Assembly: GCF_041468085.1 (NCBI RefSeq)
Contig: NZ_CP121017.1
Span: forward strand, 3,289,676 to 3,353,675
Source: Tistrella mobilis
Lineage (GTDB): Bacteria; Pseudomonadota; Alphaproteobacteria; Tistrellales; Tistrellaceae
Reading direction: 5' to 3'
DNA length: 64,000 nucleotides
How positions within the stretch are numbered: the stretch's first letter is position 1; every line of letters starts with the position of its first letter. The translations under genes were made by a program, and so were the position numbers. This document shows, one piece after another, positions 49,372 to 53,121 of the stretch. The notes beneath the pieces were generated by a model, which made no database searches, had not been told where the DNA came from, and was given only the letters and a program-made list of their open reading frames with translations.

Positions 49372-49885
49372 CGCTTCCCCATCTTTTTCTGGTTGCGATC
49401 CAACATCATGCGTCGACGACCCGGGTGCCGCGGCGTCCGGCGGGGGCCTTGGGCGGTCACCTTCGGCAACCGGCCGGCCCGGATCCGACCACCGCGAGCC
49501 GTCGTTCCGGAACAGGCCGGATCCCGCGCCATCTCTCCCGCGCGGGCCGTCTGCTCCGGCCTCCCCGGGCTCGGGCTGGGGCCATTATGCACCGGAGCAG
49601 GCGGAACCAGAAGCAGGGAAACTCGCCTCATACCTGATAGGAAAGCCATGCAGATCGCGCACGGGTCTGGTGCCATGCAGAAGCTGCATTGTTGCAGTGC
49701 GAAAAGGACCCCTCCCGAAACCGATCGATCAGGCGTATCTCTAGCTCATCGAAACGACACGATGCGCCGCCGCAGCTCAGGCGCCCCGACCGAGCCCCCC
49801 AAGCACGCAGCCCTGAAAGATCTTCAGGATGCGACCGGTCGAGAGGCCCGGCAGCGAAGACGGCGCAGCCCCTAGGAGACCTGTC
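49372..49885. other. Divergent intergenic region before the DUF1127 gene
   Basis: About 510 bases between the binding-protein gene and the DUF1127 gene. It is of mixed composition, with an array of TGCAG/CTGCA half-sites near 49675-49697 (listed separately). Frames in it have no ribosome-binding site and no recognisable product. No clear sigma-70 promoter was found; the RpoH-type promoter expected from the Rhodobacter parallel could not be confirmed by eye. Confidence 0.5.
49675..49697. promoter_or_regulatory. Overlapping inverted repeats (TGCAG/CTGCA array)
   Basis: ATGCAG-AAG-CTGCAT (perfect six-base arms) overlaps CTGCA-TTGT-TGCAG. Three alternating half-sites at regular short spacing suggest cooperative binding by a dimeric repressor, about 190 bases upstream of the DUF1127 gene. 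Confidence 0.4.
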
Positions 49886-50089
49886 ATGACCGCCTTCATT
49901 CCTGGCGTCATCTCGCTGAAGAACGTGATCGCCCGCGTGATCCGCTGGCGCCTGGAGCGTCGGACCTACGCCGAACTGAAGTCCCTGGACGACCGCATGC
50001 TGGCCGATATCGGCATCTCGCGCGGCGAGATCCGCTCGGTCGCGACCCATGGTCGCCAGGGTCACGAGGTTGCCGGCTACGGCGTGTGA
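49886..50089 (+). CDS. DUF1127 small basic protein (CcaF1-like)
   Basis: 67 residues. The C-terminal motif RTYAELKSLDDRMLADIGISRGEIRSVA is the DUF1127 signature (first half RTYAELKSLDDRMLADIG); the N-terminal half is an amphipathic basic helix (LKNVIARVIRWRLERR). GGAGA precedes the ATG. In Rhodobacter sphaeroides the DUF1127 protein CcaF1 binds RNA and is co-transcribed with the CcsR small RNAs. Here too the gene is followed by a run of C-rich-loop hairpins and a terminator on the same strand. The RNA-binding role is inferred from that family. Confidence 0.9.
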   Translation: MTAFIPGVISLKNVIARVIRWRLERRTYAELKSLDDRMLADIGISRGEIRSVATHGRQGHEVAGYGV

Positions 50090-50140
50090 TCCGGCGAGCC
50101 CGGCCGTGAATATGGCCGGATGCCGCGCCTGAAACAAGCT

Positions 50141-50489
50141 TCGCATCAGGAACCGTCCTCCCCCGGAGCCCGATGCGATAACTGAAGCGTTTCCCCCGCT
50201 TCAGCCTGCCCGGGCCGCTGCCGCCCTCCCTCGGCAACCGGCCCGACCCCAGCCCGGCGTCTGCTGCGCCTCCGCCTGCCCTCCCTCAGGCCCGAGTGCT
50301 GCGCGACGCCGACGGGACCGGTCGTTCCCCACTTGCGACCAGCCCCGCGATGCCTTGATGACGGTCCGGCCGCCCTCCCTCGGCCCCACCGTCCGCCCCT
50401 CTCCCCAAGGGGCCGCATCGCCGGGCAGCAAGACGGACCGGTCACCGCATCACGGCCCCGACGCTTCCCCCGTCGGGGCCGTTTTTTTT
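50141..50489 (+). ncRNA. Candidate array of CcsR-like small RNAs (C-rich loop hairpins)
   Basis: Successive hairpins on the plus strand, each exposing a C-rich loop. H1 50141-50178 has a seven-base stem with CCTCCCCC in the loop; H2 50183-50203 has loop TTTCCCC. H3 50219-50236, H4 50274-50291 and H6 50368-50385 have the identical loop CCCTCCCT on different stems (TGCCG/CGGCA, GCCTG/CAGGC, GGCCG/CGGCC). H5 50320-50340 has loop TTCCCCACTTG, H7 50395-50413 has loop TCTCCCCAA, and H8 is the terminator with loop CTTCCCC. Identical loops on compensating stems indicate selected RNA structure. The loops are complementary to Shine-Dalgarno-like GGGAGG. This matches the layout of the CcsR RNAs after a DUF1127 gene. 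Individual RNA ends cannot be set. Confidence 0.7.
50452..50489 (+). terminator. Strong rho-independent terminator
   Basis: A perfect 12-bp stem ACGGCCCCGACG / CGTCGGGGCCGT with a seven-base loop, followed by eight T. It points along the plus strand, so it ends the DUF1127/hairpin transcript, 360 bases after the last codon. That a 360-nt untranslated 3' region is retained supports a functional RNA there. Confidence 0.95.
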
Positions 50490-50491
50490 CG

Positions 50492-52297
50492 TCAGGCGTA
50501 AAGCCCCTCAATGACGTCGGTGTACTTCCTGTACACATTGCTGCGCCGGATCTTCATGGTCGCCGTCACCTCGTCGTCGTCATGGTCCAGTTCCTTGGTC
50601 AGCAGGTGGAAGCGGCGGATCTGCGACACGGGGGCGAGACCGGCATTGGCACGGGCGATTTCGGCGTCGATCAGGGCCCGCACCTTCGGGTTCTCGGCCA
50701 GCGACCGGAAGGTGGTGTAGGCGATGCCCTGCTCTTCGGCCCAGCGCGCGACGGTGTCGTAGTCGATCTGGATCAGGGCGGCGACGTATTTGCGCCGGTC
50801 GCCGATCACCACGCATTCCTTGATATAGGGGCTGGATTTGGCGGCATTCTCGATCTCGGTCGGCGACAGGTTCTTGCCGCCGGCGGTGATCATGATGTCC
50901 TTGATCCGGTCGACGATGCGGATATGGCCGTCGACCTCTTCCCCGACATCGCCGGTATGCAGCCAGCCGTCGCGGATGGTGTCGCGGGTGGCGGCCTCGT
51001 TCTTGTAGTAGCCGGCGAAGACCGAACCGCCACGGACCAGGATTTCGCCGGTCGCGGGATCGAGCTTCACCTCCACCCCGTCGACGGCGGTGCCGACCAT
51101 GCCCGGCCGGGCATCCTCGGGCGCCTGGCCGATAGCCACGCCCGAGGTCTCGGTCTGGCCATAAGCCTCGACCAGCGGCACCCCGATGGTGCGGAAGAAG
51201 CGCAGGATCTCGGGCGAAATCGGGGCCGCACCGGTAAGGGCGACATGGACCCGGCGCAGGCCGATGAAATTCTGCAACGCCCGGAACACCAGCAGATACC
51301 AGAGCGCGAAGCGCAGTCGCTCGGCCAATGCCCAGTCGCGGCGCGGTTTCCAGGCAAGTGGCGTGCAGTCGCGGACCGCGCGGTCGAACAGCGCCTTCCG
51401 CCAGCCGCCGGTCTCGGCCATCTTGATGTGGATCGCTGCGTGCAGTTTTTCCCAGATCCGGGGTACGCCCAGGAAAAAGCTGGGCGCCACCTCGCGCAGA
51501 TCCGACTGTACGGTGCGCAGGCTTTCGCCGAACGAAATCCGGCTGCCCAGATAGAGCGGTGCGAAATTGGTCATCGCCTGTTCGGCGACATGGCAGAGCG
51601 GCAGATAGCTGAGGCTGGAGGCGTCGCCGTCCAGATGCAGCCGCGCCACCAGCCCGGGCACGACATGGGTGATGTTGCGATAGGTGATCACCGCCCCCTT
51701 GGGCTTTCCGGTCGAGCCCGAGGTGTAGATCATCAACGCGGTGTCATCCAGCGTCTGGGCATCGAGCAGCGCATCGGCGCGGCCGGGATCGGCGGCATGG
51801 CGTCCGGCGCCCAGCCGTTCCACCTCGCTGAAGGCGATCAGGTCGGGGTCGTCGTAGCCGCGCAGGCCACGCATGTCGACGACCACGATCCGGCGCAGCC
51901 GCGGCAGTTCCGCCCGCCGCTCCAGCACCTTGTCCGCCTGTTCCTGATCCTCCACCACCACCACGTCGACATCGGCATGGGCGAGCACATAGGCGACCTC
52001 GCCCGCAGGGCTGGTCGGGTAGACGCCGACCGTGACCGCACCGATGATGCCGGTGCCCAGCTGGGCGATCACCCATTCGGCCCGGTTTTCGGACAGAATG
52101 CCGACATGGCCCCCGGCGCCCACGCCCAGCGCCTCCAGCCCCAGCCCGAAGGCGCGGGCGCGCTCGAAATAGCCGGCCCAGGTGATCGGCTGCCAGATGC
52201 CGTAATCCTTCTGGCGGATCGCGAGCCGGTCGCCCTGCCGGCGGGCATGCTCGCGCAGCATCTGGGGCATGGTCAGGGTCGGAATCGCCATGGTCAT
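50492..52297 (-). CDS. Long-chain-type acyl-CoA synthetase (AMP-forming)
   Basis: 601 residues. P-loop LMIYTSGSTGKPKGAV, LSYLPLCHVAEQ, YGQTETSGV, the hinge region GWLHTGDVGEEVDGHIRIVDRIKDIM and KNLSPTEIEN. The C-terminal catalytic-Lys region is TATMKIRRSNVYRKY. Activates a carboxylic acid to its CoA thioester. Its ATG overlaps the stop of the livF-type gene, so it is part of the ABC uptake operon. Such operons typically import and immediately activate hydrophobic or aromatic acids; the actual substrate is unknown. Confidence 0.92.
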   Translation of the reverse strand: MTMAIPTLTMPQMLREHARRQGDRLAIRQKDYGIWQPITWAGYFERARAFGLGLEALGVGAGGHVGILSENRAEWVIAQLGTGIIGAVTVGVYPTSPAGEVAYVLAHADVDVVVVEDQEQADKVLERRAELPRLRRIVVVDMRGLRGYDDPDLIAFSEVERLGAGRHAADPGRADALLDAQTLDDTALMIYTSGSTGKPKGAVITYRNITHVVPGLVARLHLDGDASSLSYLPLCHVAEQAMTNFAPLYLGSRISFGESLRTVQSDLREVAPSFFLGVPRIWEKLHAAIHIKMAETGGWRKALFDRAVRDCTPLAWKPRRDWALAERLRFALWYLLVFRALQNFIGLRRVHVALTGAAPISPEILRFFRTIGVPLVEAYGQTETSGVAIGQAPEDARPGMVGTAVDGVEVKLDPATGEILVRGGSVFAGYYKNEAATRDTIRDGWLHTGDVGEEVDGHIRIVDRIKDIMITAGGKNLSPTEIENAAKSSPYIKECVVIGDRRKYVAALIQIDYDTVARWAEEQGIAYTTFRSLAENPKVRALIDAEIARANAGLAPVSQIRRFHLLTKELDHDDDEVTATMKIRRSNVYRKYTDVIEGLYA

Positions 52298-53121
52298 GAC
52301 AGCCACCGCTTGCGCCGCTTGTAATGCTTGATGTCGCGGAAGGACCGGCCGCCGCCATCCTCGCCGCCATGGCCCAGATAGAATTCCTGCACGTCCTGAT
52401 TGGCGGCAAGCTGGGCCGGCGTGCCGTCGATCACCACCCGGCCGCTTTCCATGATGTAGGCATAATCGGCAACCGCGAGGGCGATCGCGGCGTTCTGTTC
52501 GACCAGCAGCACCGCGGCCCCGCGCTCGCGATTGATGCGCAGCACGATCGAGAAGATCTCTTCCACCACCATGGGGGCAAGGCCCAGCGACGGCTCGTCG
52601 AGCATGATCAGCTGCGGCTCGGCCACCAGCGCCCGGCCGATGGCCAGCATCTGCTGTTCGCCGCCCGAGAGATAGCCGGCAAGCCCCTTGCGCCGCTCTT
52701 TCAGCCGCGGGAAATAGCCATAGACCATGGCCAGCGCATCGTCGGTGGAGCCGACGCTGCCGGCATTGCGGGCATAGGTCGCCGCGATCAGATTCTCTTC
52801 GACCGTCAGATCCTCGAAGACCCGGCGGCCCTCCATCACATGAAACAACCCGTCATGAACCAGCCGGTCGGGCTCCCGCCCCCAGGCCTCGCGGCCGCGG
52901 AAGCGGACATGGCCGGCGGTCAGCCCGCCATTCTCCAGCCGGATCAGGCCGGACACGGTCTTGAGCGTGGTCGACTTGCCGGCACCATTGGCGCCGAGCA
53001 GGGCCACGATCGCGCCGGGGGCGACGCGGATCGACAGCCCGCGCAGCACCTGCACCGTGTGATTGTAGACGACCTCGATATTCTCGATGTCGAGCAGAGG
53101 ATCGGGAGAGGCTGACGTCAT
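52294..53121 (-). CDS. livF: ABC transporter ATP-binding protein, LivF type
   Basis: 275 residues. Walker A GANGAGKST, signature YLSGGEQQMLAIG, Walker B LIMLDEPSLGLAP and LLVEQNAAIALAVAD. The insert GLTAGHVRFRGREAWGREPD and the basic tail FRDIKHYKRRKRW are typical of the paralogues that accompany acyl-CoA ligases. I chose MTSASPDPLL rather than an earlier in-frame start. Overlaps the ligase gene by four bases. Confidence 0.93.
   Translation of the reverse strand: MTSASPDPLLDIENIEVVYNHTVQVLRGLSIRVAPGAIVALLGANGAGKSTTLKTVSGLIRLENGGLTAGHVRFRGREAWGREPDRLVHDGLFHVMEGRRVFEDLTVEENLIAATYARNAGSVGSTDDALAMVYGYFPRLKERRKGLAGYLSGGEQQMLAIGRALVAEPQLIMLDEPSLGLAPMVVEEIFSIVLRINRERGAAVLLVEQNAAIALAVADYAYIMESGRVVIDGTPAQLAANQDVQEFYLGHGGEDGGGRSFRDIKHYKRRKRWLS

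Follow-up and report, generated by a model that had tools for sequence, protein, structure and literature searches.

The locus raises the question of whether the C-rich-loop hairpins that follow a short DUF1127 gene in Tistrella mobilis form a counterpart of the small RNAs (sRNAs) linked to such genes, or merely the GC-rich end of an mRNA. The loop of the CcsR RNAs is CCUCCUCCC, the name cuckoo is given to the SmelA075-SmelA099 RNAs, and CCUCCUCCC is, to our knowledge, the one loop by which sRNAs linked to DUF1127 genes have been known until now. The CCTCCTCCC/CCUCCUCCC motif has no occurrence on either strand of the window (the whole stretch of 64,000 nucleotides that was analysed).

The DUF1127 gene, its leader and its neighbours

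The window was compared with T. mobilis (L032) and with a third Tistrella genome (L003). Around the array, the following features were found:

49602..49885, + strand: strongly conserved leader, divergence of 2.1% (6/284) vs. L032 and 2.5% (7/284) vs. L003
49648-49875, + strand: leader open frame of 75 codons with a CCCCTCCC stretch (from the sequence)
49886..50089, + strand: DUF1127 gene, 67 aa (PF06568 match and sequence)
50492-52306, - strand: AMP-binding (acyl-CoA-ligase-like) gene, the 3' neighbour of the array

In a profile search, the 67-aa product matches PF06568 with 57.8 bits, the cut-off being 23.3, and an AGGAG Shine-Dalgarno (SD) sequence lies immediately 5' of the gene. It shares 97% identity with a protein encoded by pTM3, a plasmid of T. 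mobilis KA081020-065, and region 49600-50490 as a whole shows 96.3% identity to the pTM3 record. Synteny with pTM3 breaks just past the terminator of the array, at ~50493, where the plasmid sequence is unrelated. Tistrella is placed by NCBI in the Geminicoccales. The initial annotation had put the locus in an alphaproteobacterial order other than that of Rhodobacter, which is supported; the check it proposed had named the Rhodospirillales.

The leader of the DUF1127 gene is about as conserved as the hairpin array, and its uORF part diverges by 0.9% and 1.3% (vs. L032 and L003, respectively). The TAG stop of the leader open frame overlaps the DUF1127 SD, an arrangement which suggests that coupling or attenuation may take place. 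No promoter of the gene, and in particular no sigma-70-type site, was recognised upstream. Over 162 DUF1127 upstream regions, EcfG- and RpoH-like consensus patterns gave no signal, with 0-1 matches on each strand, and the bare GGAAC occurred 54 times in sense vs. 50 in antisense.

One further DUF1127 match above the cut-off is present in the same genome. At L113:1314-1390 (C4, near 4271166, in the genome of the window), this second Tistrella gene is preceded by an open frame that is nearly identical in L230 and whose early codons are very C-rich and fall within a predicted hairpin.

Structure of the hairpin array

Across 50141-50482, the + strand is predicted to fold into successive hairpins whose loops are C-rich and free of G; this row starts 51 nt behind the DUF1127 stop (the gene ends at 50089 and hairpin 1 begins at 50141). 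Its parts, together with a preceding hairpin, are:

50100..50119, + strand: hairpin 0, not C-rich, preceding the array (fold)
50141..50178, + strand: hairpin 1, loop TCCTCCCC (MFE fold)
50182..50204, + strand: hairpin 2, 8 bp, loop TTTCCCC (perfect-stem finder and MFE fold)
50211..50245, + strand: hairpin 3, inner loop CCCTCCCT at 50224-50231, outer 7-bp stem (finder and fold)
50255..50311, + strand: hairpin 4, long stem, loop CCCTCCCT at 50279-50286 (finder and fold)
50320..50340, + strand: doubtful hairpin 5, loop TCCCCACTT (only when folded alone)
50342-50353/50415-50426, + strand: stem enclosing hairpins 6 and 7 (fold)
50360..50393, + strand: hairpin 6, loop CCCTCCCT at 50373-50380 (sequence and fold)
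50395..50413, + strand: hairpin 7, 6 bp, loop CTCCCCA (finder and fold)
50452..50489, + strand: Rho-independent terminator, 12-bp stem, loop CTTCCCC, eight T (sequence and finder)

The MFE fold contains seven C-rich loops, in the order TCCTCCCC, TTTCCCC, CCCTCCCT, CCCTCCCT, CCCTCCCT, CTCCCCA and finally the terminator loop CTTCCCC, three of them being CCCUCCCU at the RNA level. The region is made up of 46.8% C vs. 27.8% G, and the sense strand of the array is fixed by the terminator, with its 12-bp stem and eight T.

The initial annotation had counted seven hairpins plus a terminator. The array stands, with the exception of hairpin 5 (TTCCCC, ~50320-50340), which is lost in the whole-region MFE and centroid folds, where its 5' arm pairs far downstream and encloses hairpins 6 and 7. 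Three hairpins had also been described as having the same loop on covarying five-base stems. This holds for hairpin 4 and for the outer stems, which are all different among the three CCCTCCCT hairpins and therefore strengthen the point of internal covariation, but hairpins 3 and 6 share the same inner 16 nt, so that for the five-base stems the covariation comes mainly from hairpin 4. The remaining loops are C-rich as described, and according to the fold so is the loop of the terminator, CTTCCCC.

The palindrome GACCGGTC occurs at 49833, 50316 and 50436 of the locus, among eight copies in the window, and two of its copies would be able to form a long-range stem displacing hairpin 5.

Array versus chance

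Perfect stems of at least 5 bp with C-rich, G-free loops were searched by a dedicated finder, which returned six hairpins in 50090-50495; none of 500 dinucleotide shuffles equalled this number (maximum of three). The three highest counts among 628 sliding windows of 406 nt, taken from both strands, were 6, 3 and 3 hairpins, all in windows that overlap the array; the next count was 1. MFE folding gave a similar picture, with seven C-rich loops vs. a shuffle maximum of four (200 shuffles), and a fold-energy z of -8.9 (200 shuffles) or -8.3 (100 shuffles). When both strands were scanned in 636 windows of 401 nt, the highest loop counts, 6 and 5, fell in windows overlapping the array, and the next-ranked windows had 2. 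The PF06568 match, the folds and the shuffles thus bear out that C-rich-loop hairpins, closed by a terminator, lie 3' of the DUF1127 gene, as the first reading of the locus had claimed.

The CCCTCCCT motif occurs as a pair 35-65 nt apart only once in the genome of the window, at the array. With a spacing of 30-60, a scan of 386 alphaproteobacterial genomes gave 31 such pairs, spread over 20 genomes; 30 of the 31 were checked, and 4-bp stems surround the motifs only in the three Tistrella array copies and in none of the other 27.

Conservation among Tistrella genomes

Of the 342 positions of the array, 9 differ from L032 and 5 from L003 (1.5-2.6% divergence). The upstream gene has 146 differences in 1219 positions vs. 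L032, of which 109 are at third codon positions (~27% of ~406), and the spacer 50090-50140 has 7 in 51. In a four-sequence Tistrella alignment, in which L004 and L032 are nearly identical, ten columns of the array vary, none of which touches a C-rich loop or the terminator: hairpin 1 changes at 50148, 50152, 50153 and 50168, all outside its loop, and the other variable columns are 50341, 50354, 50356, 50357, 50359 and 50427. Hairpin 2 is invariant in the four sequences. A compensatory change from C-G to T-A at 50105/50114 keeps the pairing of hairpin 0 between Tistrella species; cross-species covariation amounts to this one pair, in a hairpin that is not C-rich, since the form is known in one genus with little divergence. 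Homology to the other Tistrella sequences stops at most ~5 nt past the terminator, and the array is therefore taken as a unit bounded by its own terminator.

C-rich-loop hairpins behind other DUF1127 genes

A purpose-built profile provided 269 DUF1127 matches, from which 32 regions duplicating the first 60 nt of another were removed. The resulting 237 regions, none of which was dropped as too short, comprise three from the Tistrella array locus and 234 others; the sample is enriched for relatives of the Tistrella DUF1127 protein and does not include the second Tistrella gene. As for the origin of the 234 regions, 97 come from a class sample (21 + 76), in which 39 of 95 genomes have a DUF1127 match, 21 from one family picked for its CCTCCTCCC arrays (match in 19 of 21 genomes), and the rest (26 + 81 + 9) are mainly protein relatives.

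At least one strict C-rich-loop hairpin was found in 31 of the 234 regions in sense vs. 11 in antisense, the other 203 having no such hairpin in sense; at least two were found in 14 vs. 0 and at least three in 5 vs. 0. Without the array-chosen family (213 regions), these figures become 23 vs. 11, 9 vs. 0 and 2 vs. 0, respectively. Within the 97 class-sample regions, at least one hairpin is present in 7 vs. 0 antisense, and two only in L215 (1/97). The MFE version of the survey, run on 236 regions after exclusion of those below 150 nt, gave at least one C-rich loop in 58 regions (three from Tistrella) vs. 10 in antisense, and at least two in 21 (three being the Tistrella locus) vs. 0. C-rich-loop arrays behind DUF1127 are thus real but uncommon.

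Loop types in other lineages and RNA models

Classic CCTCCTCCC arrays were detected with the same finder 3' of DUF1127 in L266, L267, L260, L265 and L010/L119, and the Tistrella array has the same position and orientation. Among 15 loci tested with the Rfam model ar14, only L267 (twice) and L260 match; since the model also misses the classic CCTCCTCCC arrays of L266, L265 and L010/L119, failing it says little. In the window, no Rfam family is above the cut-off and a permissive search gives no ar14. The array was not filed as an ar14/cuckoo member because it has no CCUCCUCCC and no Rfam model match, and common descent with CcsR is not claimed because the window has no CCTCCTCCC and no ar14 match.

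Other loops were also found. L254 has a short-loop form (TTTCCTCCCTTT and CCCTCCC), and single C-rich loops ahead of a T-run are present in L088 and L074. Behind DUF1127 in L014, at ~1662-1960, long hairpins with CTCCCC loops are repeated. In Rhodoplanes/Xanthobacteraceae, a three-hairpin C-rich element stands behind DUF1127 in L073, L087, L093, L094, L103 and the MAG L064, with a CCTCCC loop, then TTTCCCCTC or similar, and then a C-rich last loop:

L103:2798-2890: Rhodoplanes/Xanthobacteraceae three-hairpin element, directly behind DUF1127 (also in L084 and other MAGs)

The five elements searched against Rfam (L073, L087, L093, L094 and L103) had no match there. A covariance model was built from six sequences, with double changes in 4 of 30 pairs, and was run on 175 of 298 loci and on the window. 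Beyond its own six sequences, it matched L084, L108 and L077 (E from 6.8e-10 to 0.0024), followed by weaker rows for L054, L090, L081 and six reverse-strand rows (E from 0.05 to 0.95), and for L146 (E 0.73) and L191 (E 0.83); there was no match in the Tistrella window at E up to 1. The CCTCCCT hairpin of L081 weighs little because the perfect-stem finder has it and the MFE folds do not. On the 386 class genomes, the model matched only G024 (E 0.0066), in a search whose filters lose weak matches.

Interpretation and rival explanations

A divergent DUF1127 protein-plus-sRNA operon, working like ccaF1-CcsR and the cuckoo RNAs, is in our judgement the best explanation of the locus, and a rather probable one. 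The initial annotation had already proposed a divergent ccaF1-CcsR-like locus in which the loop has changed and loop types alternate, and its position, architecture and conservation, together with the DUF1127 survey, speak in favour of that proposal. The analyses above demonstrate the gene, the predicted structure with its conservation, the terminator, and the fact that some other DUF1127 genes are also followed by C-rich-loop hairpins; co-transcription, processing, stress control and mRNA pairing of the Tistrella array we infer by analogy. The DUF1127 mRNA would continue, in a single transcript, into a 3' UTR composed of C-rich-loop hairpins and end at the terminator. If ccaF1-CcsR is a guide, this 3' UTR is probably cut into at least one stable sRNA, and the DUF1127 protein would help to process or control the sRNAs. 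Held out by the stems, loops such as CCCUCCCU, UCCUCCCC and UUUCCCC would base-pair with G-rich sequence, for example the GGGAGG ribosome-binding sites of target mRNAs, whose translation or stability would be lowered. The loops might sequester GGGAGG or, alternatively, be bound by the DUF1127 protein.

A pairing action is plausible because CCCUCCCU, which contains CCUCC, is complementary to AGGGAGGG. The pattern AGGGAGGG-N3-12-ATG occurs 17, 24 and 27 times in the three Tistrella genomes vs. 5, 4 and 7 times for the reversed pattern. When 30 of the 68 matches were extracted and translated, several proved not to be credible starts and no target was drawn from them; one match common to the three genomes, with an identical 19-aa frame, appears to be antisense within another open frame.

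The strong rival, although we consider it somewhat unlikely, is that the loops bind the DUF1127 protein or another RNA-binding protein, the 3' UTR being an autoregulatory element or a protein sink without mRNA pairing. The gene adjoins the array, the loops UUUCCCC, CUCCCCA and CUUCCCC have no CCUCC, and R. sphaeroides CcaF1 binds RNA and affects the maturation of the RNAs 3' of its own gene, according to the available text of PMC8625941 and PMC10253847; yet the loops differ greatly between lineages that share the DUF1127 core. A role of C-rich sequence in Rho utilisation has been considered as well, the array being a rut-like element through which termination would be coupled to translation or stress. 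The excess of C over G (46.8% vs. 27.8%) would fit this, as would the attenuation of an S. meliloti DUF1127 gene, which needs the C-rich codons of an upstream ORF and for which Rho has been proposed in the accessible part of PMC12218461. That published element, however, sits in the 5' leader, whereas the Tistrella C-rich runs are in the loops of stable predicted hairpins and lie between the gene and an intrinsic terminator, which makes the rut-like reading very improbable.

The remaining reading is the plainest one: the hairpins would merely stabilise and terminate the 3' end of the DUF1127 mRNA, with C-rich loops arising simply because the sequence is GC-rich and biased towards C. Hairpins that protect 3' ends are common, the region is rich in C and a terminator stands at its end. 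However, one loop is repeated exactly three times, no C-rich loop varies between species, dinucleotide-preserving shuffles do not reproduce the array, and none of the 136 similar pyrimidine-only C-rich 8-mers found outside the array in the whole window (92 on the + and 44 on the - strand) is flanked by a 5-bp stem. This by-product reading is therefore held to be improbable.

Going beyond the single locus, we tentatively envisage, with more doubt than confidence, that several alphaproteobacterial lineages share one broad class of DUF1127 3' arrays, in which lineage-specific C-rich loops would be an evolving pairing code tracking ribosome-binding sites or the DUF1127 protein. The loop sets would be CCUCCUCCC, CCCUCCCU with UUUCCCC, and CCUCCC with UCCCCUC, often including the terminator loop, and Tistrella would represent an expanded mixed-loop form outside current RNA models. 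Rfam models do miss the Tistrella array, and if it acts in the same way as the known systems, the layout can persist through changes of the loop, and loop-motif searches then undercount such loci. The two roles proposed for the loop, ribosome-binding-site pairing and DUF1127-protein recognition, would also be separable with naturally occurring loop variants.

Comparison with known systems

At the level of titles and abstract beginnings, and among the matches listed, no earlier report of the Tistrella array was found, which does not imply its absence from print. DUF1127 proteins need not act on RNA: according to the available text of PMC12501420, Salmonella YjiS (DUF1127) gave no evidence of binding RNA, and the Agrobacterium DUF1127 proteins act through PhoR. 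Like the uORF-controlled S. meliloti gene, as far as the accessible part of PMC12218461 describes it, the Tistrella DUF1127 gene has a leader ORF and a C-rich segment; the S. meliloti C-rich element lies in the leader and acts on the transcription of its own gene. The open frame before the second Tistrella DUF1127 gene resembles this attenuator.

In R. sphaeroides, according to the portions of PMC10253847 and PMC8625941 available, ccaF1 is co-transcribed with CcsR1-4, a Rho-independent terminator closes the cluster, and the four RNAs are cut from the ccaF1 3' UTR with the participation of RNase E and CcaF1. The Tistrella array likewise lies 3' of a short DUF1127 gene on the same strand, as in this CIN1-type arrangement, and ends in a Rho-independent terminator. 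It differs by its loops (CCCUCCCU, UUUCCCC and others); no RpoH promoter was recognised before the gene with the consensus patterns used.

SmelA075/SmelA099 have anti-Shine-Dalgarno loops on variable stems, and blocking of ribosome-binding sites is presumed in the part of PMC3927594 available. As in cuckoo/ar14 (RF02344), several neighbouring hairpins of the Tistrella array repeat one anti-Shine-Dalgarno-like loop on stems that vary; unlike in cuckoo/ar14, the loop motif is a different one, without CCUCCUCCC, the ar14 model is unmatched (a weak test), loop types are mixed and the terminator loop is C-rich. Finally, the Rhodoplanes/Xanthobacteraceae element has three hairpins only and its model misses the Tistrella window, but here too, behind DUF1127, CCTCCC- and TCCCCTC-type loops alternate and the last loop is C-rich, as in the Tistrella array.
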